NCBI GenBank assembly: GCA_021463845.1
Contig: JAJTXV010000006.1
Location: 1 to 49,088 of the forward strand
From: Anaerolineales bacterium
GTDB lineage: Bacteria > Chloroflexota > Anaerolineae > Anaerolineales > UBA11579
Reading direction: 5' to 3'
DNA: 49,088 nt
Under the pieces are notes generated by a model. It did no database searches, was not told where the DNA came from, and saw only the letters and a list, made by a program, of their open reading frames with translations. How positions within the stretch are numbered: the first letter of the stretch is position 1; the number at the start of each line of letters is the position of its first letter. Positions 5,658 through 35,907 of this stretch are shown here, piece after piece. Made by a program: the position numbers and the translations under genes.

Positions 5658-5864
5658 CTATTTGTCGCGCATCACCTCCTCCAGCCGGGCGAGGATGCGC
5701 TGGCTCAGTTCGCCAAGCTGCTCCTCGTACAAGCTCAGGATGCGGTCAAGCAGGCTGCGGGCGATCAGATCGCCGCGGTAAAACGCCACAACCATGAAAG
5801 TAAGCAAGCCCACCACGCCCAAGGCGTTGATGGCTTCGAACAACATTTGCATATCTGCGTTCAT
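5658..5864 (-). CDS. Small membrane protein with amphipathic tail, holin-like
   Basis: 68 residues: one transmembrane helix (about 12-28, INALGVVGLLTFMVVAF) followed by a charged amphipathic helix rich in Leu, Arg and Glu to the end (SRILARLEEVMRDK region). TTTGGGGG lies 4 nt before the ATG, matching the phage-type ribosome site. It precedes the 84-residue membrane protein by 44 nt on the same strand. Such a pair of tiny membrane proteins is common in phage lysis cassettes, but no endolysin is present nearby. Confidence 0.5.
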   Translation of the reverse strand: MNADMQMLFEAINALGVVGLLTFMVVAFYRGDLIARSLLDRILSLYEEQLGELSQRILARLEEVMRDK

Positions 5865-6351: not shown

Positions 6352-6684
6352 CTAGCTTTCGGCGCTGGCGGAGACGACCTGCACCAGCAGCTTACGCCGC
6401 TCCTGGTTGCCATCCACCTGCGCACCCACCAGCACCACATAGCGCGCGCCCCCATCAGCTTGGAGGGCGCGCAGCTTTTTAAGGGTCAGCACGCTGCCGG
6501 TGATCACATGCGCGTCGCCGGCATCCATGGCTTCGGCGGTGATATCGACCCCGTTGCGGTATACGCTGGCGTGGGCAGCGCTGACGCTGGTGGCGCCCTG
6601 CCAATCCACACTGTAGGCGATCTGCTCCCCGGCCACCATGCTGACCGGGCTGTCGATCAACCATACGGCACTGTCTGTCATCAT
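6352..6684 (-). CDS. Small phage-type structural protein, probable beta sandwich
   Basis: 110 residues, predicted mostly beta: alternating polar/hydrophobic strands such as VWLIDSPVSMVAGEQIAYSV and YVVLVGAQVDGNQERRKLLV. No family is recognised. Its ATG overlaps the TGA of the upstream frameshifted gene (ATGA), with GGGAGG just before it, so it is translationally coupled to that gene. It is the last of a four-block minus-strand run (adaptor, large tail-type protein, 141-aa protein, adhesin-like protein). A virion accessory or assembly role is inferred from position only. Confidence 0.6.
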   Translation of the reverse strand: MMTDSAVWLIDSPVSMVAGEQIAYSVDWQGATSVSAAHASVYRNGVDITAEAMDAGDAHVITGSVLTLKKLRALQADGGARYVVLVGAQVDGNQERRKLLVQVVSASAES

Positions 6685-8050
6685 GCCTCCCTGTTCTGTG
6701 CGGTGAGCAACGTTTTGCGGCGGCGGGCGCGCAGCTTGATGCGCGTATCCTGAATGCGGACGCGCGGGCTGGGCTGCACCAACCTGCCGGTGGCGCTGGG
6801 CACGGCGAAGTAGTCCACCATGAGCATGGGCCGCAGCGCGGGCGTGCTGTGGGCGGCGGCCGCCAGGCGCACATACTCGTTGCCGTTGCTGGCGGGCGCG
6901 TTGCCCGCCGCATCACGGCTGCCGCGCAAACTGTAGTAGGCCTGGCCGCCAGGCACCAGCCAGTTGACATCCAACCCGGGGCTTGAGATCAGGGTGTTCA
7001 TGGGCAGTCCGTTGGTATTGCGCCAGACCACATCCATAGTGCCTGCCAGGCAGGCATCATAGACCGCCTCGCGGTTGCCATTGCTCAGCGGGTCTTGGGC
7101 CGACCAATCCTGCTTGATGATCTGGACGTTAAAGTCTGCCAGGGTGGACACGTCAACCACGCATGCCATCTGCAAGGTGGCGGCATAGATGACCGCCAGC
7201 GGGTTGAGCGAGGCCAGCGAGAACTTGATGACCGAGCGGAAGGTGTGATAGCGCGGGATGGCCGATTGAAAAGCCTGGCCAATGAACATATCGGCCGTGC
7301 CAAAATCGAAAGACGTCGACGTGGAACGCGTCGTGGCGTAGCTGCCCGCAAAGGCCGTGATGTACGCATCCCCCACCGAGCCGAAGAACACCGAGGGGTC
7401 GATGACCAGCGGGAAGCTGGCGCGGGCCACATCCTCCACGGCCAGGCCGGTGTACTCGACCCCGTCTGCAGGGAAGCGATGGACCGGGAAGACCTGGCCA
7501 TCTGCATCCACGGCGCTGCCCGGCGAAAAGACCAACCCTTGAGGGTTGTTGCGCTGCAGGGTTTCGTAGACCAGGTACCCCTCGGCGGCGTCCAGCCCAT
7601 CAGTAGACCGCTCAGTTGAAGCTCCTCCTTGGCGCCGTGCTCGGTGAGCACAAGCTCATGACAAAACACGCCCGTCTCACGGCGCAGGCGCGCCCCGACG
7701 GCACGGCCGGCGGGCAGCTGCGCCAGCGACGTGTACACGCCGTCCGCCAGCAGGCCCACGCTGCGCGTGCGCTGCTGGTAGGCGGTGCCCTCGCTGAAGC
7801 TCAGCGTGCCATCCGGCGCCAGGCGCACGGGTGCGCCTGGCGCGCCCCAGCGAGCGGCCACATCCGTACGCAGCTGCAGGTCATACGGCAGCCAGCCCTG
7901 CTGGCTGCAGAAGTACTGCGGCGCGGCGGTGATAACGGCGCGGCGTACCCCGCCGCCAAGCTCGAAGTGCGTGGCATGGGTGCTGCGGGCCGCGACCCGC
8001 CCGGCAAGCTCTTGGTGCTGTTGCAAGAATCCATCGATCCAAGTTGTCAT
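6681..8050 (-). pseudogene. Phage-type tail/adhesin protein split by a frameshift
   Basis: Two overlapping reading frames together make one protein of about 455 residues. Frame A starts at ATG 8050 (AAGGGGG 6 nt upstream) and is sensible through RRETGVFCHELVLTEHG. It then turns into low-complexity Arg/Ser sequence. From about 7620-7590 sense continues in the -1 frame (LDAAEGYLVYETLQ, then FSPGSAVDADGQVFPVHRFP). The second half contains a strand-rich segment (FRSVIKFSLASL...DVVWRNTNGLP) resembling DNRLRE/CBM-like modules of tail and cell-surface proteins. No slippery heptamer is evident near the switch. It may be a true frameshift mutation, a sequencing error, or less likely a programmed shift. 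The gene is followed by the coupled 110-aa gene. Confidence 0.65.
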
Positions 8051-8164: not shown

Positions 8165-8590
8165 TCACTCCCCCAGATACATAACGCCCTCAGGGCTCCA
8201 TTCCAGATTGAAGTCTTCACCGCTGACGGTGTGGTCACCGCCAAAGTTCATGTAGGCCAGCAGCGGGCTGGTAGCCGGACTGCCGGTGTCCTTGTAGAGC
8301 ACGGCCGCTCGGGCGGTGAAGGCCCCGACGGGCCAGACCACATTGTCCGCCAGGATGGCGGCGTGGTCATTGGCATTGTCCTGCGCCAACGAGACGCTGG
8401 TGAGCGCTTTGCCTCCGGCGGTGTAGCCGGTGCCGCTCACCTCGTGACTGATATCGGCAAAGAATGCATGCGCATCCTTATCCGCCGTATACGCATCGCT
8501 CACAAGGGCGGCGCGCAGGGTATCAGCCAGCGGCTGCACTTCACCTTTGAGCAAGGCCAGTTTGCCTGCGTTGTAGATAAAGCTGTACAT
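8165..8590 (-). CDS. Phage structural protein, small head/tail type
   Basis: 141 residues. The layout is one I recognise from many tailed phages: a short start (MYSFIYNAGKLALLKGEV), then LRAALVSDAYT, then the signature ISHEVSGTGYTAGGKALTSV, a beta-rich middle, and AAVLYKDTGSPATSPLLAYM. These small proteins sit among late structural genes; their exact role (decoration, tail accessory) is not settled. The ribosome site is an ordinary AAAGGAT, not GGGGG, with a possible TATAAA -10 box just upstream. It lies between the large tail-type gene and the frameshifted adhesin-like gene on the same strand. Codon use matches the GC-rich host. Confidence 0.8.
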   Translation of the reverse strand: MYSFIYNAGKLALLKGEVQPLADTLRAALVSDAYTADKDAHAFFADISHEVSGTGYTAGGKALTSVSLAQDNANDHAAILADNVVWPVGAFTARAAVLYKDTGSPATSPLLAYMNFGGDHTVSGEDFNLEWSPEGVMYLGE

Positions 8591-8703: not shown

Positions 8704-11250
8704 TTATCCCTCACGTACCTTGACAACCGCCACGCCGCCTTCACCGGCCAGCTGGCGCTGCAGGCTGGGCGCCTCGACGATGACGTAGGTATCGTCGAGG
8801 GCGCTCCAGACGGAGCGCAGCCGGATGCGGGCGGCGCTGCGCGCCACCCGGCGCAACCAGGCCAGGAAGGCCGCTGGATGCGGCTCCAGCCCGCCCCCGC
8901 CGTCCAACTGCAGCTCGGCCAGGCGCACATGCAGCTCCCACTGGTACTTCTGCGGCGTGCGCGCAAAACCTTCCAGCAGGGTCGCCTCCACTGTGGCCGG
9001 CTGGCTGGCGCGCTGGCTGAGCAAGCGCAGCCGCGGGCGGAAGGCATAGATCTGCCCGGTGTTCAACGCCAGCGTATCCACTGGCGAGGAGTAGAACCCG
9101 CCGGCCTGGCGCCAACGCGGCCCGCCGATCTCGCCATCCACTTGGTAGTCCAGCTCCACCTGGGCGCCCTCTCCCAGATCGCGGCTGACCAGGCTAAGCT
9201 GAGTGAGGAACTTGGGCAGCAAGGTCGCTTCCATGTCGATAGTGCTGCCGACGAGCACACCCTCATGCTGAAAGCGCATCGCCGCGTCGCCCAGCGGATT
9301 GTCGCCATTGGCTGGCAACTGGATGCAGGCCAGATCGCCGCCCAGATCGACCCACAGGCGCGGCGCGGTGCCCGGGCAGTGCTGCCAGTGCAGGCCGCGG
9401 ATGCGTGCTCCGGGCTGCGGGGCGCGCAGCAGCTCATGCCAGGCCTCTCCGTCGAAGACCAGCACGCTGGAATGGCCCGCGCCCGCATCCAGCGCGGCGG
9501 CCAGGCGCCCGGGGCCAAGCGGGGCCAGGGCGGCCAGGCGGCCGCCGCGCCCGCTGGGCAAACCTTCGCCGCGGGCCGGGCCAAAGTCGGCCAGGCCGCT
9601 GGCGCCGGTGGCTAGCAGGCTGCCGCCCCAGCCGAGCCACAGTTTGTCTTGCCAGACCAGCGCCGGCGGCGCAGGGCTGAGCTGCGGCTGAGCTTCGATC
9701 CCAAGATTGTGGCGGGCGACATGCTCGCTGCGTTCGACCACCCACAGGCTGTTGGCTTTGACGCCCCACAGCTGGCTGTTGTAGTCGAGCAGTTTGTGCA
9801 AAAGCTGCCCATCCGCGCCCAGCTTGATGGCGCTGCCAAAACTGAGCGGCGTGAGCCAGGCACTGGGCGCGGCCCTCGAGACTTCGGCGGTGGCGCCGAA
9901 GCCGCGCCACACTTGCGGGCCAAACTCGCTGTGCTGAAAGACATGCAGCAGGTTAGCGGTGTTGCTGCCATCGTCGTCGAACTCATGCTTGGGCGGCGAG
10001 GCGGACGGATTGAAGCGCACACGCAGGATGGGCACACTGCCCTGCGCCAGCAAGGCCTGTCCATTGAGCACAGCAACATCCTTGACCGTGCCATCGATCA
10101 GGTCGCCGGAAACAGGCGAGATGTCTTGCCAGTGCGGCGTGGCGTAGATGGCGTATTCCGAAGTGGAATCGGGCGCCAAGTCCCACGCCGCGACCGTGAG
10201 CGTGCTGACCGTATTGGTGATGATGTTGCGAGCCTGCCCGGCGCCTTTGCCCGCCAGGATGCGCACCCACGCGCCGGCCCATTGGTCCACCGGCCAGTTC
10301 TTGTTGGTATCGGTGAGCGCGGCCGCCCCTGCGCTGGTGGCCACGCCGCGCTCGCCATTGAGATAGACATGCGAAGGTGTGCCGTCGGCGCGCTGGTCGG
10401 CCGCGTACAGCGCGCCGTGCAGCTCAAAGAACACGAACGTACGCGCCTGCTCCGCATCCTGCACGCGGTAGTAGGCGCAGAACTCGCTGGCGCTCCAGGC
10501 ACTGCCGTCCGGCGAGCTGTGGCCGCCGCTGGCGCGCGGTTGCACGCCGATCTCCCAGTGGTTGCTGGCATTGTCGGCCACTGCGCCGCGCAGCGAGAGA
10601 TGATATGTGCCCGCGCTGAACGGCGTGCTGTAGCCGGAGACGTCAAAGCTGTGCAGCTGGCTGACCACATCGCTGACATCAGCCTGCGTGATGGCATGGA
10701 TGGAGCCGGGCAGCACCGCGCCCGGCTGCCCAGCCGCATCGGCGTGCAGCTGCAGGGCCAGCTCGCCCGGCGAGCCAACCCGGCGCAGCCAGACGCGGGC
10801 ATGCCTGGCGGCCAGCCCACCTGCGCCAACGGTGAAGGCGGCTGCCAGGCTGCGCTGCGCGCCGATCAGGGATTGCCAGCTCACATCGCCGGGCAGGCGC
10901 TGGGCCGCGGCCCGCAGGCCGCTGGCGTAGCGCCACTGCGGCGCGGCGTGGACGCGGCCGGGCGTCAGGGTCCAGGCATCCTGGCTGTCAAAGTAGCGGC
11001 GGGCGGCCTGGGTGCTGAAGCGCACCGAGCCGCGCCCCCCGCTCCAATCGCGCTGCTCGATCTGGGCCAGGCCCGGCTCCCAGGCGCCGAAGCCGCTGAC
11101 CCAGTTCAGACGCAAGCCGGAAGGTGTGAGTACGCTCTCCTTTATGCCCGCCGCCCCACCCTCCAAGCGCAGCCCCCAGGTCAACACGCCATCGCTCAGG
11201 CTCAGTTCGTGGCTTGGTGCAGTGGCGCCGGGGTATGTGCGCACGCTCAC
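8704..11250 (-). CDS. Large phage-type tail or baseplate protein
   Basis: 848 residues from GTG at 11250. The start is chosen because GGAGG lies 6 nt upstream and the GTGA overlaps the stop of the neck/adaptor-type gene; a longer reading to 11388 would run through that gene. The sequence is almost entirely beta: VSVRTYPGATAPSHELSLSD at the start, a middle region with repeated Trp/Gly-rich blades suggestive of a propeller, and a C-terminal segment (VELDYQVDGEIGGPRWRQAG) typical of virion tail proteins. No catalytic motif is seen. Position after the adaptor in a capsid-adaptor-tail order points to a tail hub, spike or receptor-binding component. Specific function is inferred. Confidence 0.65.
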   Translation of the reverse strand: MSVRTYPGATAPSHELSLSDGVLTWGLRLEGGAAGIKESVLTPSGLRLNWVSGFGAWEPGLAQIEQRDWSGGRGSVRFSTQAARRYFDSQDAWTLTPGRVHAAPQWRYASGLRAAAQRLPGDVSWQSLIGAQRSLAAAFTVGAGGLAARHARVWLRRVGSPGELALQLHADAAGQPGAVLPGSIHAITQADVSDVVSQLHSFDVSGYSTPFSAGTYHLSLRGAVADNASNHWEIGVQPRASGGHSSPDGSAWSASEFCAYYRVQDAEQARTFVFFELHGALYAADQRADGTPSHVYLNGERGVATSAGAAALTDTNKNWPVDQWAGAWVRILAGKGAGQARNIITNTVSTLTVAAWDLAPDSTSEYAIYATPHWQDISPVSGDLIDGTVKDVAVLNGQALLAQGSVPILRVRFNPSASPPKHEFDDDGSNTANLLHVFQHSEFGPQVWRGFGATAEVSRAAPSAWLTPLSFGSAIKLGADGQLLHKLLDYNSQLWGVKANSLWVVERSEHVARHNLGIEAQPQLSPAPPALVWQDKLWLGWGGSLLATGASGLADFGPARGEGLPSGRGGRLAALAPLGPGRLAAALDAGAGHSSVLVFDGEAWHELLRAPQPGARIRGLHWQHCPGTAPRLWVDLGGDLACIQLPANGDNPLGDAAMRFQHEGVLVGSTIDMEATLLPKFLTQLSLVSRDLGEGAQVELDYQVDGEIGGPRWRQAGGFYSSPVDTLALNTGQIYAFRPRLRLLSQRASQPATVEATLLEGFARTPQKYQWELHVRLAELQLDGGGGLEPHPAAFLAWLRRVARSAARIRLRSVWSALDDTYVIVEAPSLQRQLAGEGGVAVVKVREG

Positions 11251-12071
11251 GCCTGCCTCCGCAAGCGCAGCAGGCGGGCCGGGCGCTGGGGGCGCCAGAT
11301 CGGGAAGCGGCGGCGGGCGGCTTGCAACTCCTCGACGGCATCTTGCCACAGCAGGGCCAGCTTCTCGTCGCCGCCGCGGCGGGCGCACTGCCAGCGCAGG
11401 GCGCGCTCGGCCACCGCCGCTACGGCCAGCTCGGGCGCGATGGCTTCGGCCAGCGTTTCATCATGGGCAGCCAGGCGCGGGTGAGCGGCCAGGTACCAGA
11501 CCCGCAGCGGCCGCCCGGCCGGCAGCGGGTCGGCGAACAGCACCAGCCCGGGCTGACCGGCGTTCGTGGGCACATAGTCCCAATCGTGCAGGGTGCGCCA
11601 CGGGTCGCCCGCGCTGACGCCTGGGATGGCCAGATAGTCGATGCGCAGCGGGCGGCGGCGCGCCCAGGCCAGCGTGTGGGCGCTGGAAGGTAGCACGTCT
11701 TCGTCCACCTGGGGCACATCGCCCAGGCCGCGCAGAGCGCTGTTGGCCAGCTCGAGCATGGTGGCCAGCGGATACTGCGCCGAGGCCAGCCCATAGACCA
11801 TGCCAGCCTCGACCGGCTCGCTGAGACTGCTGGCCAGCGCCAGCGTGCCGCTGCTGGCCACGAAGCCGGCCACGCGGGCGAATTCGCCCGCCGGCGGCCC
11901 ACCGCCAGCAGCCAGGAAGACCGCGCCGCCCTTCCAGTCATCCTCGCGGTGCTGGCCGGCCAGCTCGGCGTCGGCCAGCGTGCTGGCGCTGCCGCCGCTC
12001 GCCTGGCCGCGCCGCAACTGGCCCAGTTCCATATAGGCATCTTGAAGCAACTCACTCAACGTGTACGACAT
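11247..12071 (-). CDS. Phage neck / head-tail adaptor-like protein
   Basis: 274 residues. It begins MSYTLSELLQDAYMELGQLR, the N-terminal pattern of small adaptor or gateway proteins that follow the capsid gene in short-tailed phages. A beta-rich middle follows, and the protein ends in a helical Arg-rich region (AVEELQAARRRFPIWR). The start is fixed by AAGGGGG at 12082-12076, 4 nt before the ATG. The stop overlaps the GTG of the large tail-type gene, so the two are translationally coupled. In a standard late operon it would directly follow the capsid gene, but here about 2 kb of AT-richer orphan genes intervene. The adaptor assignment rests on position and N-terminal pattern. Confidence 0.65.
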   Translation of the reverse strand: MSYTLSELLQDAYMELGQLRRGQASGGSASTLADAELAGQHREDDWKGGAVFLAAGGGPPAGEFARVAGFVASSGTLALASSLSEPVEAGMVYGLASAQYPLATMLELANSALRGLGDVPQVDEDVLPSSAHTLAWARRRPLRIDYLAIPGVSAGDPWRTLHDWDYVPTNAGQPGLVLFADPLPAGRPLRVWYLAAHPRLAAHDETLAEAIAPELAVAAVAERALRWQCARRGGDEKLALLWQDAVEELQAARRRFPIWRPQRPARLLRLRRQA

Positions 12072-12105: not shown

Positions 12106-12139
12106 CGCAGCCTGCGGCATTCATAGCACGCAGGCTGCG
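12106..12139. repeat. Hairpin repeat, copy 1 of 2
   Basis: An 11-bp perfect stem CGCAGCCTGCG / CGCAGGCTGCG with a 12-nt loop. A near-identical hairpin lies at 13020-13053. Similarity continues for about 30 nt beyond both (a shared TGTCAAGG), so this is a degenerate direct repeat flanking the gene at 12194. Confidence 0.75.
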
Positions 12140-12193
12140 AGTTGTGGCGATTTGGGGGCGGGTGTCAAGGAAGTGGGGAATTCCAGCTCTGGA

Positions 12194-12832
12194 TTAAACT
12201 GGCGAAGAGTTTATGTTCTTTCCAAATCTCTCATTAAGCTGATCAGGCGTCGAAAATGCAAAAAGGTTTATTATCTTTTTGTAGTTAGTCTTTAGAGCAA
12301 AACTAAGTTTCGAGAATGTTCGCGGAGAGCTGACTGCAATCCCGAAACTGGCCAAAACCTCCGCCAGCGCGTATCCGCCCGAAACAAATTTTAAAGGATA
12401 CAGAATTACATCCTGCCCGATTTGATCAGAGACAATCTTGAACATAGCTATCTTGCCCAAATAAGTTGCCTTTTTTATCAGATAATCTTCGTTAATCTCT
12501 ACATTTAAAAACAGGTTGCCTTTTTCAACAAGGAAATCAAAATGCTCATCTATTGTTGCCTTCCATTCCTTAACAGGCCTTGGCTCCAATAAATACCTTG
12601 GCCAGTTTTCCATGAGCTCTGTTGTCAGCCGTTGCACAGCAATTCCACCAGCAATATCTCCGGGGCCGTAACTCAACTCAAAATCCCAGTATGTGTCACA
12701 GTCTTTGCAGAGCATCAGCCAATGAACTCCATCCGAACTTTTAGAAATCTGAAATAGTTTGGCCTCACTAAAGTCTTGCGCCTCGCGATTTTTGAGGACA
12801 ACTGCGGAAGCGCAATCTGCACATGGAATCAC
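12194..12832 (-). CDS. Orphan protein with paired CxxC (zinc-ribbon-like) motifs
   Basis: 212 residues from GTG at 12832, with AAGGAG 5 nt upstream. Two cysteine pairs (MIPCADC near the start; LCKDCDTYWDFEL at about residues 42-54) suggest a zinc ribbon at the N-terminus. The rest is a mixed alpha/beta domain with no recognised family. Base composition is clearly AT-richer than the phage-type and housekeeping genes on either side, and the gene lies between two copies of a hairpin direct repeat. Both suggest acquisition. Small orphan genes inserted in phage late regions can be accessory (moron) genes, but nothing shows that here. Confidence 0.7.
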   Translation of the reverse strand: MIPCADCASAVVLKNREAQDFSEAKLFQISKSSDGVHWLMLCKDCDTYWDFELSYGPGDIAGGIAVQRLTTELMENWPRYLLEPRPVKEWKATIDEHFDFLVEKGNLFLNVEINEDYLIKKATYLGKIAMFKIVSDQIGQDVILYPLKFVSGGYALAEVLASFGIAVSSPRTFSKLSFALKTNYKKIINLFAFSTPDQLNERFGKNINSSPV

Positions 12833-14087: not shown

Positions 14088-15218
14088 CTACGTGGTGATA
14101 CCCGTGATCTTGCCGTGGGCCTTGTTGTTGGCCACCAGCAGGCTTAGCTCGCCCACCACCTCGCCCTTCAGGCTGTCGCCTGAACGGGCCAGCTCCTTGG
14201 CCTCAAAGCCGCGCAGGGTATAGAAGCCCACCTTGCTGCTCTCCAATACATAGGCCGTGTGCACCGGGCACCAGCGGTCCATCAGCAGCTCCAGTTCGCC
14301 GTACTGGGTCACCACGCGCTCGATCGCACCCAGGCCCAGCTTGTTCTCGCCCTGGCCCACGCGCACGAAGGTGCTGTTGTCCAGCAGGCTGCGCAGATCA
14401 TTGGCGACGCGCGGGTTCATCACCAGCAGGTCCGGGTTGCCGCCATCCATGACGATCTCTTCCATCAAGCTGTCGACATCCGCCTTGGCGATGGCGCCGC
14501 CCGCATCCACGGTGTTGTTGGTGATGAAGGTGCCCAGCCCGCCCATCGAGCGCGGCGCACTGGCGGAGCCAGCCGCCCGCACGCCGTGGAAGGCTGCGCC
14601 TTCCACCAGGCGCAGCAGGTGCGGCACGGCCTTGTTGGCCTGGTACTGGAACTCATCCTCAATGCCATACTGGCTGATGGCCTGCTGAGTGCCGCTCACC
14701 TGCACGGCTTTCTGAAAGATGCTGGTGTAGTTGAACGGCACGTTCAACGCCACCAGCGGGCCATAGTCGGCATCATCACCTTCCAAACGTGCCATGGCGG
14801 TGATGTGGATCGCGGCGGTGGCGGCATGGGTGGCGTTGGTGCCGCCATAGGCGCGGCTGTAGACGGTGACGGTGTTGGTCACCAAGTCCACGCTCTTGAC
14901 CACCATGTACTCCGCATCGATCAGGATGACATGCCCATCCTGAAACACCGAGGCGTCCGCCACCACGAAGCTGGTGTCGGATGCGCCGATCGTCTCGCCG
15001 TTGTTGGCGGCCGTCACCAACGGGTCGAGCTGATCCTCGAGCAGTTCCACCTTGTGGCCGTTCATGCGGATCTTGAATTTCTCGCGGGCGCCATCCAACC
15101 CCAGGCGCGCCAACAGCGGCGTATCGCGCGGGTCGATCAGCTGCACTACATCGCTGATGGCCCGCGCCTGGGCGGCGCCATCCGCATAGGTTGTCTTCAT
15201 TCCATCGTAAATTGCCAT
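14088..15218 (-). CDS. Phage major capsid protein, HK97 fold (DUF5309 / SU10 type)
   Basis: 376 residues, a full-length short capsid protein. Landmarks of the DUF5309/SU10-like family are in order: an N-terminal TTYADGAAQARAISDVVQLI and DPRDTPLLARLG, the beta-rich insertion ASVFQDGHVILIDAEYMVVK, the helical spine (FQYQANKAVPHLLRLVEGAA), SMGGLGTFI, then DLLVMNPRVANDLRSLLD and the C-terminal domain ending LAVANNKAHGKITGI-like. AATAGGGGG lies before the ATG with 4 nt spacing, the ribosome site shared by the dispersed phage-type genes. The scaffold-like gene is immediately upstream; two terminator hairpins follow. The next expected late gene (adaptor) is about 2 kb away. Nothing looks truncated, and codon use is host-like. 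Confidence 0.9.
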   Translation of the reverse strand: MAIYDGMKTTYADGAAQARAISDVVQLIDPRDTPLLARLGLDGAREKFKIRMNGHKVELLEDQLDPLVTAANNGETIGASDTSFVVADASVFQDGHVILIDAEYMVVKSVDLVTNTVTVYSRAYGGTNATHAATAAIHITAMARLEGDDADYGPLVALNVPFNYTSIFQKAVQVSGTQQAISQYGIEDEFQYQANKAVPHLLRLVEGAAFHGVRAAGSASAPRSMGGLGTFITNNTVDAGGAIAKADVDSLMEEIVMDGGNPDLLVMNPRVANDLRSLLDNSTFVRVGQGENKLGLGAIERVVTQYGELELLMDRWCPVHTAYVLESSKVGFYTLRGFEAKELARSGDSLKGEVVGELSLLVANNKAHGKITGITT

Positions 15219-15268: not shown

Positions 15269-15625
15269 CTAATACACCTCCAGTCCTTTGTTGCGGAACT
15301 CGCGCTTGAGCTCCAGCACTGCGGCCAGGTCGCCTGGCCGCAGTGAGCGCAGGCGGCGCTGGTACTCGGCGCGCAGGTCCGGCGCCGGCGCGCCGGCCCC
15401 GCTGGGCGGCACGACCCGGCTAGGGCGGCCCGCGGCCGGCTGGGCGCCGGGCGCGGCAGTCAGCTGCGCCAGGCGCGCCTCCAACGCCTGCTCCAGCTCC
15501 AGCTTCAACTGGCCGTGCAGTTGCTCCTTCACCAGATCAGCAATGCGCTGTTGCTTTTTACTGGCGCCCACGCTGGCCGCCCTGAGCGCGCTCCCCTCGC
15601 TTTCTTGCAGATTCTCCTGATCCAT
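15269..15625 (-). CDS. Scaffold-like protein upstream of the capsid gene
   Basis: 118 residues: an acidic/helical N-terminus (MDQENLQESEGSALRAAS), a long charged helix (VKEQLHGQLKLELEQALEAR), a Pro/Ala-rich linker, and a basic C-terminal helical segment (RAEYQRRLRSLRPGDL). The helical, charged, linker-containing build and the position directly before the capsid gene are what one expects of a phage scaffolding protein; no prohead protease is visible. Start at 15625 is set by AAAGGGGG 4 nt upstream; the reading frame is open further but without family-like sequence. Confidence 0.65.
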   Translation of the reverse strand: MDQENLQESEGSALRAASVGASKKQQRIADLVKEQLHGQLKLELEQALEARLAQLTAAPGAQPAAGRPSRVVPPSGAGAPAPDLRAEYQRRLRSLRPGDLAAVLELKREFRNKGLEVY

Positions 15626-15773
15626 GCCTCCCCCTTTCGCCGCATTACATAGCACAGTCAGGGCAGCAAAGGCGAGTCTGGGAGTGAAAATCAAGCCGCT
15701 GGACGCGCCTTTCAAAGTTGCAAGGTTTAGGGCGTCATTCAAAATTTCATCTATCATGCTTGACAGGATCGCT

Positions 15774-25998: not shown

Positions 25999-27714
25999 CT
26001 ACTCCGCTGTATTCGCGCCGGCCACCGCATCCGGGTTGGCGATGACCGGCGGCAGGCCGCCAGCCGCCGGGTCAAAGCCCTGCGTGCTCGCTTGCGGCTC
26101 CGGCGAAGCGCCAGCGATAAGCTGGCGCTTGTGCGCCTCCAGGCGGGCCGCGGCCAGCTGCTCCTGCTCGGCCTGCTGCATCACCTCCTTCGCATCCGTC
26201 TCACCAATTTGCTCCAACGCGCGCTCGCGGCTGTAGCCCAGATCGCGCACCGCCATGCTGGCCGCATTGATGCGCGCCATGCGGTCGGTGGGCACATCCG
26301 CGGTCAGCTCGACATCGATCAGCACTTCGGTCAGATCGCCCTCGGCCGGGTCCAGGCGCACGGTCTCGCTCCGACCGCGCTTGCTTACATACGCATCCAG
26401 CGGCTGGCCGCTGTGCTGCACCCAACTCAGCATCAGCTGGAAGACCTCGGCTAGAGCATCCTCAGCCAGCTCCTTGTAGGGCGTGAGACTCTTGATGCCG
26501 CTCTGCGTGGCCAGGTTGAGAGTGGCGAAGGCCGTGCCGCCCGGAAAATCGGCCGACTGCAGCACGCGCGGCACCGTGCTCTTGCCCATGCGCTCGCTGA
26601 CCCGCTCGGCAATGCGGGCCAGGCTCTCATCCAGCCCCGGCGTGGCCAGCGGGTTGAGCTGGTGGCCAGGCGGCACATGCACCACCCGGCCCGGCTCGCC
26701 GTAGTCCACATCCACTTCGGCGGTCGGGCCTTCCACCTTGAGGCGCGGGGCGGCCGCATAGGCGATGACCTCCGAAGCCAGCAGGGTCTCAACAATGTTC
26801 TGAGTGTCCCATTGGCCGGACTGAAAGACCGAGGCCAGCAGCGGAATGCGCTGGCCGCCGTCGCTGTGCAGGGTGGTGCCGCCCACCTTGGCGGCCCAGG
26901 GCAAAAAATCGAGCCCGTGCGGCTCACGCAGAATCTCGACCGCAGCGGCCTGCTCGCTGCCGGTGGGATCGGCCAGTACGGCGCCGTCCTCCTGCAGCAC
27001 GGCCCATACGGCGCGGTACTCGCCATCCATGTAATCGAAGATGGTGCAGTAGTTCAGTTCGGGCATGCGGCGGCCTGCCCGGCCGCGGCGCGGCTTGGGC
27101 AGCTTCTCGGTGAGCGCGCTGCCCCAGAACGCGGCGGCCTCGCTGAGCGGCATGACCTGCTTGAGCAGCACGGCCTCCGGCGCCCAATCCGAATAGCGCA
27201 CATGCACTTGCTGCGGGTTGCGCACAATGATGGCGAACGGCCCAAAGCGCTGCGCCGGTGCGCTGGCGGCCAGACCCAGCTGGCGGGCGGCGTCTTGCTG
27301 GGCCGGCAGGTACACCACCTGGGCGACGACCTCGTCATACAGCAGGGCGCTCAACACCACATCCCGCAGCACGCTGGCGCGGCGGCGCCGGCTGGCGTTG
27401 CGGAAGTGCCAGGCCAGGGCGCGCTCGATGCGCTCGGCCTGCTGGCAGGCCGCATCACCGCCCGCGCTGGCGTAGCCCAGCGGCTGGGCGGTGATGCGCG
27501 GCGCCACCGAGCTGAGCACGCGCGTACCGGCCCGCACGGCATCGTGCGGGTCAGTACTGACCACCTTATGCACCCAGCCGACGGCGTGCAGGGCCGGCGG
27601 CAACTGCCAGCGGTTGTGCCACATGGCGTCCATGGCGCGCAGCATGTGGTCACGCTCACGGTCCGCCGCGATCATGTGGGTGGCGATGGATTGGAAGTGC
27701 GACAGTTCTTGCAT
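25999..27714 (-). CDS. Phage portal protein
   Basis: 571 residues, typical portal length. It begins with a helical segment (MQELSHFQSIATHMIAADRE), then clip and stem-like regions with VRAGTRVLSSVAPRI, VRNPQQVHVRYSDWAPEAVL, YNTCTIFDYMDG-like beta strands (YCTIFDYMDGEYRAVW), HVPPGHQLNPLATPGLDESL, and a helical C-terminus with TQSGIKSLTPYKELAEDALA and VFQLMLSWVQ, the order seen in short-tailed-phage portals. The Ala/Gln-rich C-terminal tail is usual. AAAAGGGGG lies 4 nt before the ATG. The gene stands alone: host dioxygenase gene downstream, AT-rich lipoprotein gene upstream; capsid is about 10 kb away. No truncation. Confidence 0.82.
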   Translation of the reverse strand: MQELSHFQSIATHMIAADRERDHMLRAMDAMWHNRWQLPPALHAVGWVHKVVSTDPHDAVRAGTRVLSSVAPRITAQPLGYASAGGDAACQQAERIERALAWHFRNASRRRRASVLRDVVLSALLYDEVVAQVVYLPAQQDAARQLGLAASAPAQRFGPFAIIVRNPQQVHVRYSDWAPEAVLLKQVMPLSEAAAFWGSALTEKLPKPRRGRAGRRMPELNYCTIFDYMDGEYRAVWAVLQEDGAVLADPTGSEQAAAVEILREPHGLDFLPWAAKVGGTTLHSDGGQRIPLLASVFQSGQWDTQNIVETLLASEVIAYAAAPRLKVEGPTAEVDVDYGEPGRVVHVPPGHQLNPLATPGLDESLARIAERVSERMGKSTVPRVLQSADFPGGTAFATLNLATQSGIKSLTPYKELAEDALAEVFQLMLSWVQHSGQPLDAYVSKRGRSETVRLDPAEGDLTEVLIDVELTADVPTDRMARINAASMAVRDLGYSRERALEQIGETDAKEVMQQAEQEQLAAARLEAHKRQLIAGASPEPQASTQGFDPAAGGLPPVIANPDAVAGANTAE

Positions 27715-27817
27715 AGTTCCCCCTTTTGGGTAAAACTAGCATAGAGTGCTGGGCATATGTAAGAATCAAGGCTAATGTCAAGTAAGTGCCTCTAAAGCAA
27801 GAGGGATTAACCTAGCA

Positions 27818-33542: not shown

Positions 33543-33580
33543 AAAAGAGAGACGCCAGTATTGCTGGCGTCTCTCTTTTT
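33543..33580 (+). terminator. Intrinsic terminator between lipoprotein and terminase genes
   Basis: AGAGAGACGCCAG / CTGGCGTCTCTCT, a 13-bp perfect stem followed by T5. It separates transcription of the host lipoprotein gene from the terminase gene, which must therefore have its own promoter within 33581-33690. Confidence 0.92.
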
Positions 33581-33696
33581 GTGCATTGCTCGCCTAAGCA
33601 AACATCAAGCAGGTTGACTGCAACCACAAAAGTCCAAGTAATTCGCCGTTTCGTGATACCAGAGAACCCTTGTTTTGTACTCAAAGGGGGAAAACT

Positions 33697-35142
33697 TTGG
33701 ATACTCCACTGCCAGACAGCGCAGAGGGTTTTGCGCGCTTTTATAAAATGCTGTACGAGCGGCCGCTCCCCGCCCACGCCCTGCGAGACTGGATCCGGCC
33801 GCTGTACACCGCCCGCGCCCGCAACAAAGGCCTGCTGGTGACCGCCTTCCGCGGCTCCAGCAAAACCACCACACTCAGCATCGCCTTCACCGCCTTCCGC
33901 ATCGGCCAGCAGCCGCACAAGAGCCATCTCATCATCCAGGCCGGCAACCAGGCCGCCAAGGACACCGCCGCCCAGGTGGCCGAGCTGATCCAACACAACG
34001 CCGGCTGGAAGGCGGCCTTCGGCCACCTGGAGCCGGACCGCAAGGTGAGCTGGGGCGCGGCCGGCTACGAGGTCAAGAGCACCATCGGAGACTACGCCGC
34101 CTGGCGCGCCGCTTGCGCCCAGGAGAAAGGCAAGGACCCCACCCTGCTGGGCCTGGGCTACAAATCACGCGCCATCATTGGCAAGCACCCCACCGGCCTG
34201 CTATTGATCGATGATATTCACGATGAGAGCAATACCCGCTCGGCCCGCGAGCTGCAGACCGTCATCAAGATCCTGACCGGCACCATCCTGCCCACGGTGA
34301 CGCCGCGCAGCTGGCAGCTCGTGGTGGGCACACCTTGGCGCAGCAACGATGCCCTGGCCTACCTGGCCGCCACGCGCCGCTTCAAAACCGCCCGCACGCC
34401 CATCCTGCGCCGCGGCCGCTCGCAGTGGGCAGCCAAGTTCCCGGCCGCCAGCATCCACAAGCTGCGCCAGCTGACCGGCACGGCCGAGTTTGCGCGCATG
34501 TACCTGCTCGACCTCAAGGCCGCCGAGGGCATCCACCTGCGGCCGGAGTGGCTTCAGCACTATCCGCATGAGAAGATCGAAGTAACCTGGCCGGTCGTAA
34601 TGGGCGTGGACTATGCCAGCACGGCGGATTCACTACGCGGCCGCCAGCGGGATTACTTCGCCGTCGCCATCGGCCGCGTGCTGCCCGGCGGCGGCATCGT
34701 GCTGGTGGATGGCTACCGCGCCCGCATCAGCCAGGGCGAGGCTGAGCAGCAGCTCAGCGCCCTGGCTGAGCGCTATCCCTCCACCCACATGATCGGCGTG
34801 GAGGCGGTTGGCAAAGGCGAGGAGTTCTACCACCTCATGCTGCGCACCACCCGCCTGCCGCTGATGCGCCTGCACCCGGGCGGCAAGACCAAGGGCCGCC
34901 GCTTCGAGGCCGGCATGGCGCCGCTGTTCGAGAGCGGGCGGGCGCGGCTGGCGGATGTCGAGACGCCGTTCCTGCGCGCCTTCCGCGAGGAGTGGCTGCG
35001 CTGGCCCGACGGTGAGCACGATGACACGCTGGACGCAGTGGCCTGGATGCTGCACGTCGGCAGCAGCTACATCCCGCCGCGCGCCGCGCAGCGCGAGACG
35101 CCCAAGCCGCGCAGCCCGTTCATGAGCCTGGGGCGCAAGTGA
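33697..35142 (+). CDS. Phage terminase large subunit (DNA-packaging ATPase/nuclease)
   Basis: 481 residues from TTG 33697. The start is chosen because AAAGGGGG ends 6 nt before it; the longer frame from TTG 33670 contains that site. The ATPase domain has Walker A FRGSSKTT (about 52-59), Walker B LLLIDD (about 172) and coupling motif VVGTPWR (about 211). The nuclease domain has acidic residues in GVDYAST (Asp305), GVEAVGKG (Glu369) and DDTLDAVAWML (Asp442-446). All expected motor and nuclease residues are present, so the enzyme looks functional. No small terminase lies beside it; host genes flank it on both sides. The other phage-type structural genes are on the opposite strand. Host-like GC-rich codon use indicates long residence. 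Confidence 0.92.
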   Translation: MDTPLPDSAEGFARFYKMLYERPLPAHALRDWIRPLYTARARNKGLLVTAFRGSSKTTTLSIAFTAFRIGQQPHKSHLIIQAGNQAAKDTAAQVAELIQHNAGWKAAFGHLEPDRKVSWGAAGYEVKSTIGDYAAWRAACAQEKGKDPTLLGLGYKSRAIIGKHPTGLLLIDDIHDESNTRSARELQTVIKILTGTILPTVTPRSWQLVVGTPWRSNDALAYLAATRRFKTARTPILRRGRSQWAAKFPAASIHKLRQLTGTAEFARMYLLDLKAAEGIHLRPEWLQHYPHEKIEVTWPVVMGVDYASTADSLRGRQRDYFAVAIGRVLPGGGIVLVDGYRARISQGEAEQQLSALAERYPSTHMIGVEAVGKGEEFYHLMLRTTRLPLMRLHPGGKTKGRRFEAGMAPLFESGRARLADVETPFLRAFREEWLRWPDGEHDDTLDAVAWMLHVGSSYIPPRAAQRETPKPRSPFMSLGRK

Positions 35143-35193: not shown

Positions 35194-35907
35194 ATGGATA
35201 AACGCAAACTCATCATCGCAATACGTCTTATTTTGGGAGTAGCCACGGTAGCCGCGCTGATCAGGCAGTTCAACCTGGGCAGCGGCGGCAGCCCGGCCAA
35301 TTTCTTCAGCTACTTCACCAACCTCACCAACATCATCCTGGTGTTCGTGTACTTCAGTGGGGCCTGGACTCTGATCCAGAACCGCCAGCCCAGCGTCAAG
35401 CAGGAGATGCTGCGCGGCGGCTCGGTGGTGTTCATCCTGGTGGTGGGCCTGGTCTACGAGGTCATGCTGCGTAGCAGCATCGAGTCGCTCTACTCGTGGA
35501 GCAATCTGGTGGTGCACTACATCAACCCCATCATGGCCCTGGTGGACTGGCTCGTATGGCCGCCGCAGCAGAAGCTGCCCAGAAATGTGTGGGCCTACTG
35601 GCTGCTGTTCCCGCTGGGCTACCTGGCCTACACCTTGCTGCGCGGCCCCCTGGCCGCCTGGTACCCGTACGGCTTCCTGAACCCGATTGAACAGGGCGGC
35701 TACGGCGGTGTGGCGATCTACAGTGTGGCCATTACCGCGCTGTTCCTGTTCTTCAGCTGGATCGTGCTTAAGCTCACGCCCAAAACGGCCGTGGCACAAG
35801 CCAAGCCCGGCGCAAGCAAAGCTGTCAAGAAGACAGCTAAGAAGGCAGTCAAGAAAGTTGCCAAGAAAGCGGCTAAAAAGACCGCTCGAACAAAAACCCG
35901 CCGTTAG
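35194..35907 (+). CDS. Pr6Pr-like membrane protein with basic tail (paralogue 1)
   Basis: 237 residues with about six transmembrane segments, matching the Pr6Pr-type pattern: NFFSYFTNLTNIILVFVYF, VHYINPIMALVDWLVWPPQQ, LGYLAYTLLRGP and YPYGFLNP. The last ~35 residues are Lys/Ala repeats (KKTAKKAVKKVAKKAAKKT) like a histone-H1 tail. Function unknown. TACAAT lies 7 nt before the ATG and no Shine-Dalgarno is seen, so a leaderless mRNA is likely. A second copy lies at 36482 with one acetyltransferase gene between. Start chosen at MDKRK (35194), which matches the paralogue. Confidence 0.75.
   Translation: MDKRKLIIAIRLILGVATVAALIRQFNLGSGGSPANFFSYFTNLTNIILVFVYFSGAWTLIQNRQPSVKQEMLRGGSVVFILVVGLVYEVMLRSSIESLYSWSNLVVHYINPIMALVDWLVWPPQQKLPRNVWAYWLLFPLGYLAYTLLRGPLAAWYPYGFLNPIEQGGYGGVAIYSVAITALFLFFSWIVLKLTPKTAVAQAKPGASKAVKKTAKKAVKKVAKKAAKKTARTKTRR

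Follow-up and report, generated by a model that had tools for sequence, protein, structure and literature searches.

The large terminase (TerL) gene of the stretch of DNA analysed here (the window; 49,088 nucleotides from an Anaerolineales bacterium) belongs to a phage-derived gene set that is dispersed among host genes. Our preferred reading, to which we give a probability of roughly 0.66, is that this set encodes a domesticated, co-regulated particle of podovirus type that resembles a gene transfer agent (GTA), a particle of phage build with host DNA as its cargo. There is as yet no demonstration of a particle, of packaged DNA or of transfer, and co-regulation is inferred from a shared promoter-like element. 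The data do show vertical inheritance, purifying selection, the absence of a giant virion ORF, the break-up of the set into four units and the presence of the shared element. A bolder reading, which we favour only narrowly, is that this is a GTA of independent podovirus-type origin in the Chloroflexota, family-wide and carried as four scattered units under a shared promoter type. The genes of the set and the terminator upstream of TerL are as follows.

33543..33580, plus strand: intrinsic terminator of the host gene upstream of TerL (z -8.5, then a T run)
33697..35142, plus strand: TerL, large terminase with ATPase and nuclease, 481 aa (PHROG 38, invariant active-site residues, dN/dS)
25999..27714, minus strand: portal protein, podovirus type, 571 aa (AlphaFold model, PDB fold matches, adjoins TerL in viral relatives)
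15269..15622, minus strand: scaffold-like protein, true start near 15622 (placed between portal and capsid in compact relatives)
14088..15218, minus strand: major capsid protein, SU10 type, 376 aa (PF17236, E 4e-62; low dN/dS)
11247..12071, minus strand: p274, putative head-tail adaptor (assigned by its position)
8704..11388, minus strand: p894, putative short-tail nozzle, beta-rich (function inferred)
8165..8590, minus strand: p141, of unknown function, matches phage family PHROG 644 (E 4e-35); viral contig L305 has a homologue
6681..8050, minus strand: p485, putative virion protein, split in the window between two overlapping frames (single ORF in relatives)
6352..6684, minus strand: p110, conserved virion-module protein (homologues in four viral contigs or phages)
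5658..5864, minus strand: p68, small one-helix membrane protein, possible holin (a guess from architecture)

The TerL frame is uninterrupted from the TTG at 33697 to the stop at 35142, and there is a Shine-Dalgarno-like AAAGGGGG at 33683-33690 ahead of the start. The protein matches the PHROG 38 large terminase family (E 3e-54) and Pfam Terminase_6C (E 4e-5, a score that exceeds the gathering score). The Walker A residue K56 (AFRGSSKT), the Walker B residues D172/D173 together with E177 (LLLIDDIHDE) and the nuclease residues D305, E369 and D442/D443/D446 are all invariant (n=15 homologues). The 2.33-Mb genome has a single copy, free of internal stops. The resemblance to T7-type terminases is only weak, and headful packaging is not established. 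The first-pass annotation had claimed an intact terminase with all ATPase and nuclease motifs, a host terminator upstream at 33543-33580 and a portal and capsid on the opposite strand. All three claims held: the first on the open frame, profile matches and invariant residues, the second on a stem of -36.9 kcal/mol (z -8.5), and the third on PF17236 for the capsid and the predicted fold for the portal. Its claim that the downstream host gene is leaderless is an impression from sequence only (likely ATG at 35195, with TACAAT just upstream). It had also described the terminase as solitary; the nearest neighbours of TerL are indeed host genes, but the description is true of position and not of function.

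The portal gene (25999-27714) has no family match by sequence. All of the best 50 listed PDB matches to its AlphaFold model (pLDDT 76) are phage portals or portal complexes (top E about 1e-11), with the portals of Pan3 and SU10 as the best structural matches. Sequence profiles gave no PDB relatives for the portal, p894 or p274. The scaffold-like protein has low identity and evolves fast. The tail-like module spans about 5.7-12.1 kb of the window. In viral contigs and in phage MW202608, p274 homologues immediately precede those of p894, and p894 is 37% identical to a protein of that phage. The predicted fold of p894 was not used as evidence (pLDDT 55; Foldseek matches were mostly unrelated beta-propeller-like proteins and one cyanophage portal-tail chain). 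p485 is one ORF in G011, G005, G006 and G007, and its split in the window could be a real frameshift or an assembly error. There is no Pfam match for p68, which is kept at the module end in seven genomes. No endolysin was found near the cassette in the window and there is no GH25 in the window's genome; a GH25 endolysin lies beside the cassette in G001, G021 and G022. Together, TerL, the portal, the SU10-type capsid with the scaffold-like gene and the tail module make up a single phage-derived set.

In the window's genus the set is broken into four units with host genes between them. The units span about 29-30 kb in the window, and four separated units are also found in close relatives, two of which are single-contig genomes. 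The intervening genes are an ABC transporter operon, a copper-oxidase-like gene, a dioxygenase, a rhomboid-like gene and TypA; those without a Pfam match are named from their sequence. TerL is inverted and the units are separated by host genes in the closest relatives of the window (G011, G005, G006, G012 and G007), while in other genera TerL still adjoins the portal (G019, G020 and G021) or the set is compact and all on one strand (G002). The distance from capsid to tail module is about 15-20 kb in G008 and G012. Outer genera retain more of the set than the window's genome does, with further virion-like genes in G023 and the GH25 genes mentioned above. Named carriers are the Anaerolineales MAGs ACE_CHL1 (CP075367, one chromosome record), ACE_CHL7, TGS_CHL2, TGS_CHL6, TGS_CHL7 and CFX15. 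An intact prophage would have contiguous structural, lysis, replication and integration genes, and the set does not fit this: the units are interrupted by host genes, there is no integrase among the proteins scanned and the giant virion ORF is absent.

TerL, portal, capsid and p894 are each present in 11/12 family genomes that are at least 90% complete and, counted by genus, in 7/9. Overall, TerL is found in 18 of the 24 family genomes. Of about 177 genomes sampled from the rest of the order just 2 gave a TerL match, one of them G112, whose loci are prophage-like. The first-pass annotation had inferred continued selection rather than decay, which stops in TerL, or its absence, in close relatives would have refuted. 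TerL is present in 10/11 genomes of the window's genus (the exception is 68% complete) and in the 11/12 near-complete family genomes, and nearly all copies are open. The set is missing from G018 (90% complete). In G022 (C10:30691-31317) only fragments of TerL and portal remain, the portal with two TAA stops, and the capsid is intact; it is likely that loss of the set is in progress in this one lineage.

Pairwise dN/dS (YN00) is 0.02-0.05 for TerL, 0.01-0.04 for the capsid and 0.03-0.12 for the portal. When the observed TerL substitutions were placed at random, the frame stayed open in <1% of trials. TerL is therefore under strong purifying selection, and the earlier inference is supported by dN/dS, co-retention and the random-substitution trials. 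Side-chain carbon economy, a GTA-like trait, gave a mixed result (TerL, p 0.12, not significant; portal, p 0.002) and was not used.

The cassette genes have diverged with their hosts. In each pair of genomes their dS resembles that of flanking host genes, and TerL codon usage correlates with that of host genes (r 0.94) as host genes do themselves. Protein distances follow those of RpoB (TerL, r 0.93; portal, 0.96; capsid, 0.95; 0/5000 permutations). The family TerLs group in a single clade (99/98) that excludes viruses, the nearest of which is IMG/VR contig L122 (85/92). The deeper branches of the portal tree are unresolved, and it leaves undecided whether the family is a single clade apart from viruses. 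The viral relatives are IMG/VR contigs L122-L131, L305 and L309 and phage MW202608 (Podoviridae sp. ctptF532). TerL-portal adjacency and homologues of p274, p894 and p110 are common to the viral contigs and the phage, and the cassette shares common descent with a virus lineage. Downstream of the portal these viruses carry a giant virion ORF of 1.8-2.2 thousand residues, which a whole-genome search found in 0/24 family genomes; the positive control, G112, which is from another family and carries prophage-like copies, was matched. The steps from viral module to reduced compact cassette to dispersed cassette are preserved.

There is an element of the form TTGA[CT]-N38-TA, with fixed spacing, ahead of all four units in the window.

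33614..33662, plus strand: promoter-like element of the TerL unit, TTGACT-N37-TACCAG (built like those of the other units; weakest of the four)
27733..27781, minus strand: promoter-like element of the portal unit, TTGACA-N37-TAGTTT (conserved in close genomes)
15646..15694, minus strand: promoter-like element of the scaffold-capsid unit, TTGATT-N37-TATGTA (whole-genome pattern match)
12120..12168, minus strand: promoter-like element of the tail unit, TTGACA-N37-TATGAA (top rank when left out)

Upstream of the portal, CTTGACA is invariant and the TA hexamer lies exactly 37 nt past TTGACA in 6/6 close genomes, with a spacer that is not conserved. The 186 other ORF starts in the window all lack the element, which turns up in 0.4% of shuffled upstream regions. 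Because the pattern was first seen on the portal and TerL units, only the scaffold-capsid and tail units test it independently. When the tail unit was left out of the model its site ranked 1 of 98,074 positions, and when the scaffold unit was left out its site ranked 3, behind two other cassette sites. The TerL site, when left out, ranked 24 in the window and 4 in G005, right behind the three other cassette sites, so that the cassette sites take the top four places in G005 even when TerL does not contribute to the model. Orthologous sites in different genomes cannot be counted as mutually independent. Genome-wide occurrence was judged by pattern searches and not by PWM statistics. TTGAY-N38-TA combined with AGGGGG (the ribosome-binding site) has two matches in the whole genome, the portal and scaffold-capsid sites. 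A variant pattern matches a few other intergenic sites, for example between eno- and pyrG-like genes, and the element is therefore not exclusive to the cassette. A sigma-70 scan near TerL gave nothing above chance. Whether TerL is co-expressed with portal and capsid had been raised as a question by the first-pass annotation; the shared element is indirect sequence evidence that it is.

In the preferred reading, a podovirus-like late module with TerL, portal, scaffold, SU10-type capsid, adaptor and tail would have entered an ancestor of this anaerobic Anaerolineales family and then been retained as a host gene set. The four units would be switched on jointly in some cells and a procapsid would be assembled from portal, scaffold and capsid. 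TerL is predicted to pump and cut chromosomal DNA, because no replicating phage genome is left in the locus. The adaptor and tail proteins may then close the head into a short-tailed particle, and lysis would free particles bearing host DNA to kin, as in a GTA.

Three of the six GTA criteria of Kogay et al. 2022 (PMC9662315) are met. The structural proteins are Caudoviricete-derived (TerL by PHROG 38, capsid by PF17236, portal by fold, tail proteins by viral homologues), the set is endogenised, often the case at several loci (here four units among host genes), and it is vertically inherited and co-diversifies with the host (RpoB r 0.93-0.96; host-like dS). The remaining three, particles filled mostly with random host DNA, a head too small to hold the whole gene set (the units span about 29 kb in the window) and delivery of the packaged DNA to other cells, need experiments.

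The closest described case is FpGTA of Faecalibacterium (PMC12946183), also podovirus-type and GTA-like, whose TerL, portal, scaffold, capsid and small phage proteins are encoded at two separate loci and which is near-universal in the genus. It differs in that particles and packaged DNA have been demonstrated, in host phylum, and in having two compact operons, whereas the Chloroflexota set is in four units among host genes and is conserved to family level. RcGTA (Rhodogtaviriformidae) and BaGTA (Bartogtaviriformidae) are likewise Caudoviricete-derived, endogenised, vertical and multi-locus, with TerL under selection, but they belong to Alphaproteobacteria and arose from separate caudoviricete progenitors (PMC9662315), and no function has been demonstrated for the Chloroflexota set. 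Phage MW202608 and the viral contigs (L122-L131, L305, L309) resemble the cassette in gene content and order, but have the giant ORF, and MW202608 also has LysM, lysis and replication genes. PBSX of Bacillus subtilis is a phage-like element that packages host DNA (cited in PMC12946183), but it is tailocin-like, does not inject DNA (per PMC12946183) and is of a different lineage. Formally classified GTAs are from Alphaproteobacteria and a spirochete, and FpGTA has been called the first with podovirus-like morphology. No GTA in Chloroflexota or Anaerolineae was found in the literature searched, which did not include subscription papers and preprints. If the reading is true, a Chloroflexota GTA would be another independent domestication and would suggest a way for genes to move within the communities that these bacteria inhabit. 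The promoter signature gives something testable.

Several points count against the GTA-like reading: the lack of an endolysin near the cassette or of a GH25 in the window's genome (though one lies beside the cassette in G001, G021 and G022), the p485 frameshift, absence in G018, decay in G022, the non-exclusive element, the unresolved portal tree and the weak T7-type terminase likeness.

The set might instead encode a domesticated PBSX-type killing particle, whose heads package host DNA to kill or deter competitors and not to transfer genes. The same anatomy and signs of selection would be expected, and the RHS/SpvB-like giant ORFs at the capsid-tail junction in G008, G012 and G013 are a possible link to inter-bacterial antagonism. 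However, PBSX has a long contractile tail and there is only a short-tail module here, and the RHS ORFs are missing from the junction in G005, G006 and G007. We regard this explanation as unlikely. It is also doubtful that the set is a packaging helper for another mobile element of these hosts (a satellite or plasmid). A set that has structural and packaging genes but none for replication or integration could, by inference, serve an element elsewhere, but no such element was seen, though there was no systematic search. A circulating prophage family repeatedly acquired by related hosts would fit the existence of true viral relatives and the prophage-like copies in G112. This is very unlikely, and already contradicted for the window's genus, given the RpoB congruence, host-like dS, a single TerL clade that excludes viruses, host neighbours that are conserved within the genus and the lack of a full viral module next to the units. 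Chance survival of the pieces of a decaying prophage is equally improbable: the p485 frameshift, decay in G022 and prophage insertion in the G014 capsid gene would fit, but selection on TerL (dN/dS 0.02-0.05; random substitutions would stop it in >99% of trials), co-retention of the parts in 11/12 genomes and dispersal without loss already contradict it.

Some further observations concern insertions into the cassette. In G014 (C3:3466-30637; L081-L082) the capsid gene is split by a ~27 kb insert with its own terminase and with ORFs resembling recombinases of the tyrosine and large serine types; both ends share CCCTCGAGG. This is likely to be a prophage integrated into the capsid gene of the cassette, although the inference is from sequence alone. 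RHS/SpvB-like giant ORFs have been repeatedly inserted at the capsid-p274 junction (G008, L077:4976-11125; G012, L074:11697-20000; G013; pieces in G011), where a small ORF of unidentified type lies in the window (12194-12832) and G005, G006 and G007 have no RHS ORF. The tail-unit promoter-like element is duplicated in G011 (C1:501530 and C1:497224), flanking an inserted RHS-like region.

Other motifs were also noticed. In outer genomes the AGAACATATGTGCTATA core could be read as a LexA box, but this was not established. At about 47230 in the window there is a palindrome, TAGAACAATAGTTCTA, that resembles a LexA-type box, with similar ones in G008, G013 and G014, and the outer cassette promoters contain the related AGAACATATGTGC. 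Finally, at intergenic sites away from the cassette (L271, L288 and L292-L296) the same element, as CTTGAC-N34-GTGCTA, is followed downstream by an AAAGTTRTTA...TAATAACTTT repeat and is also paired with a promoter-like stretch, TTGACCCCC; one of these sites precedes a prepilin-peptidase-like gene and one an FtsH-like gene.
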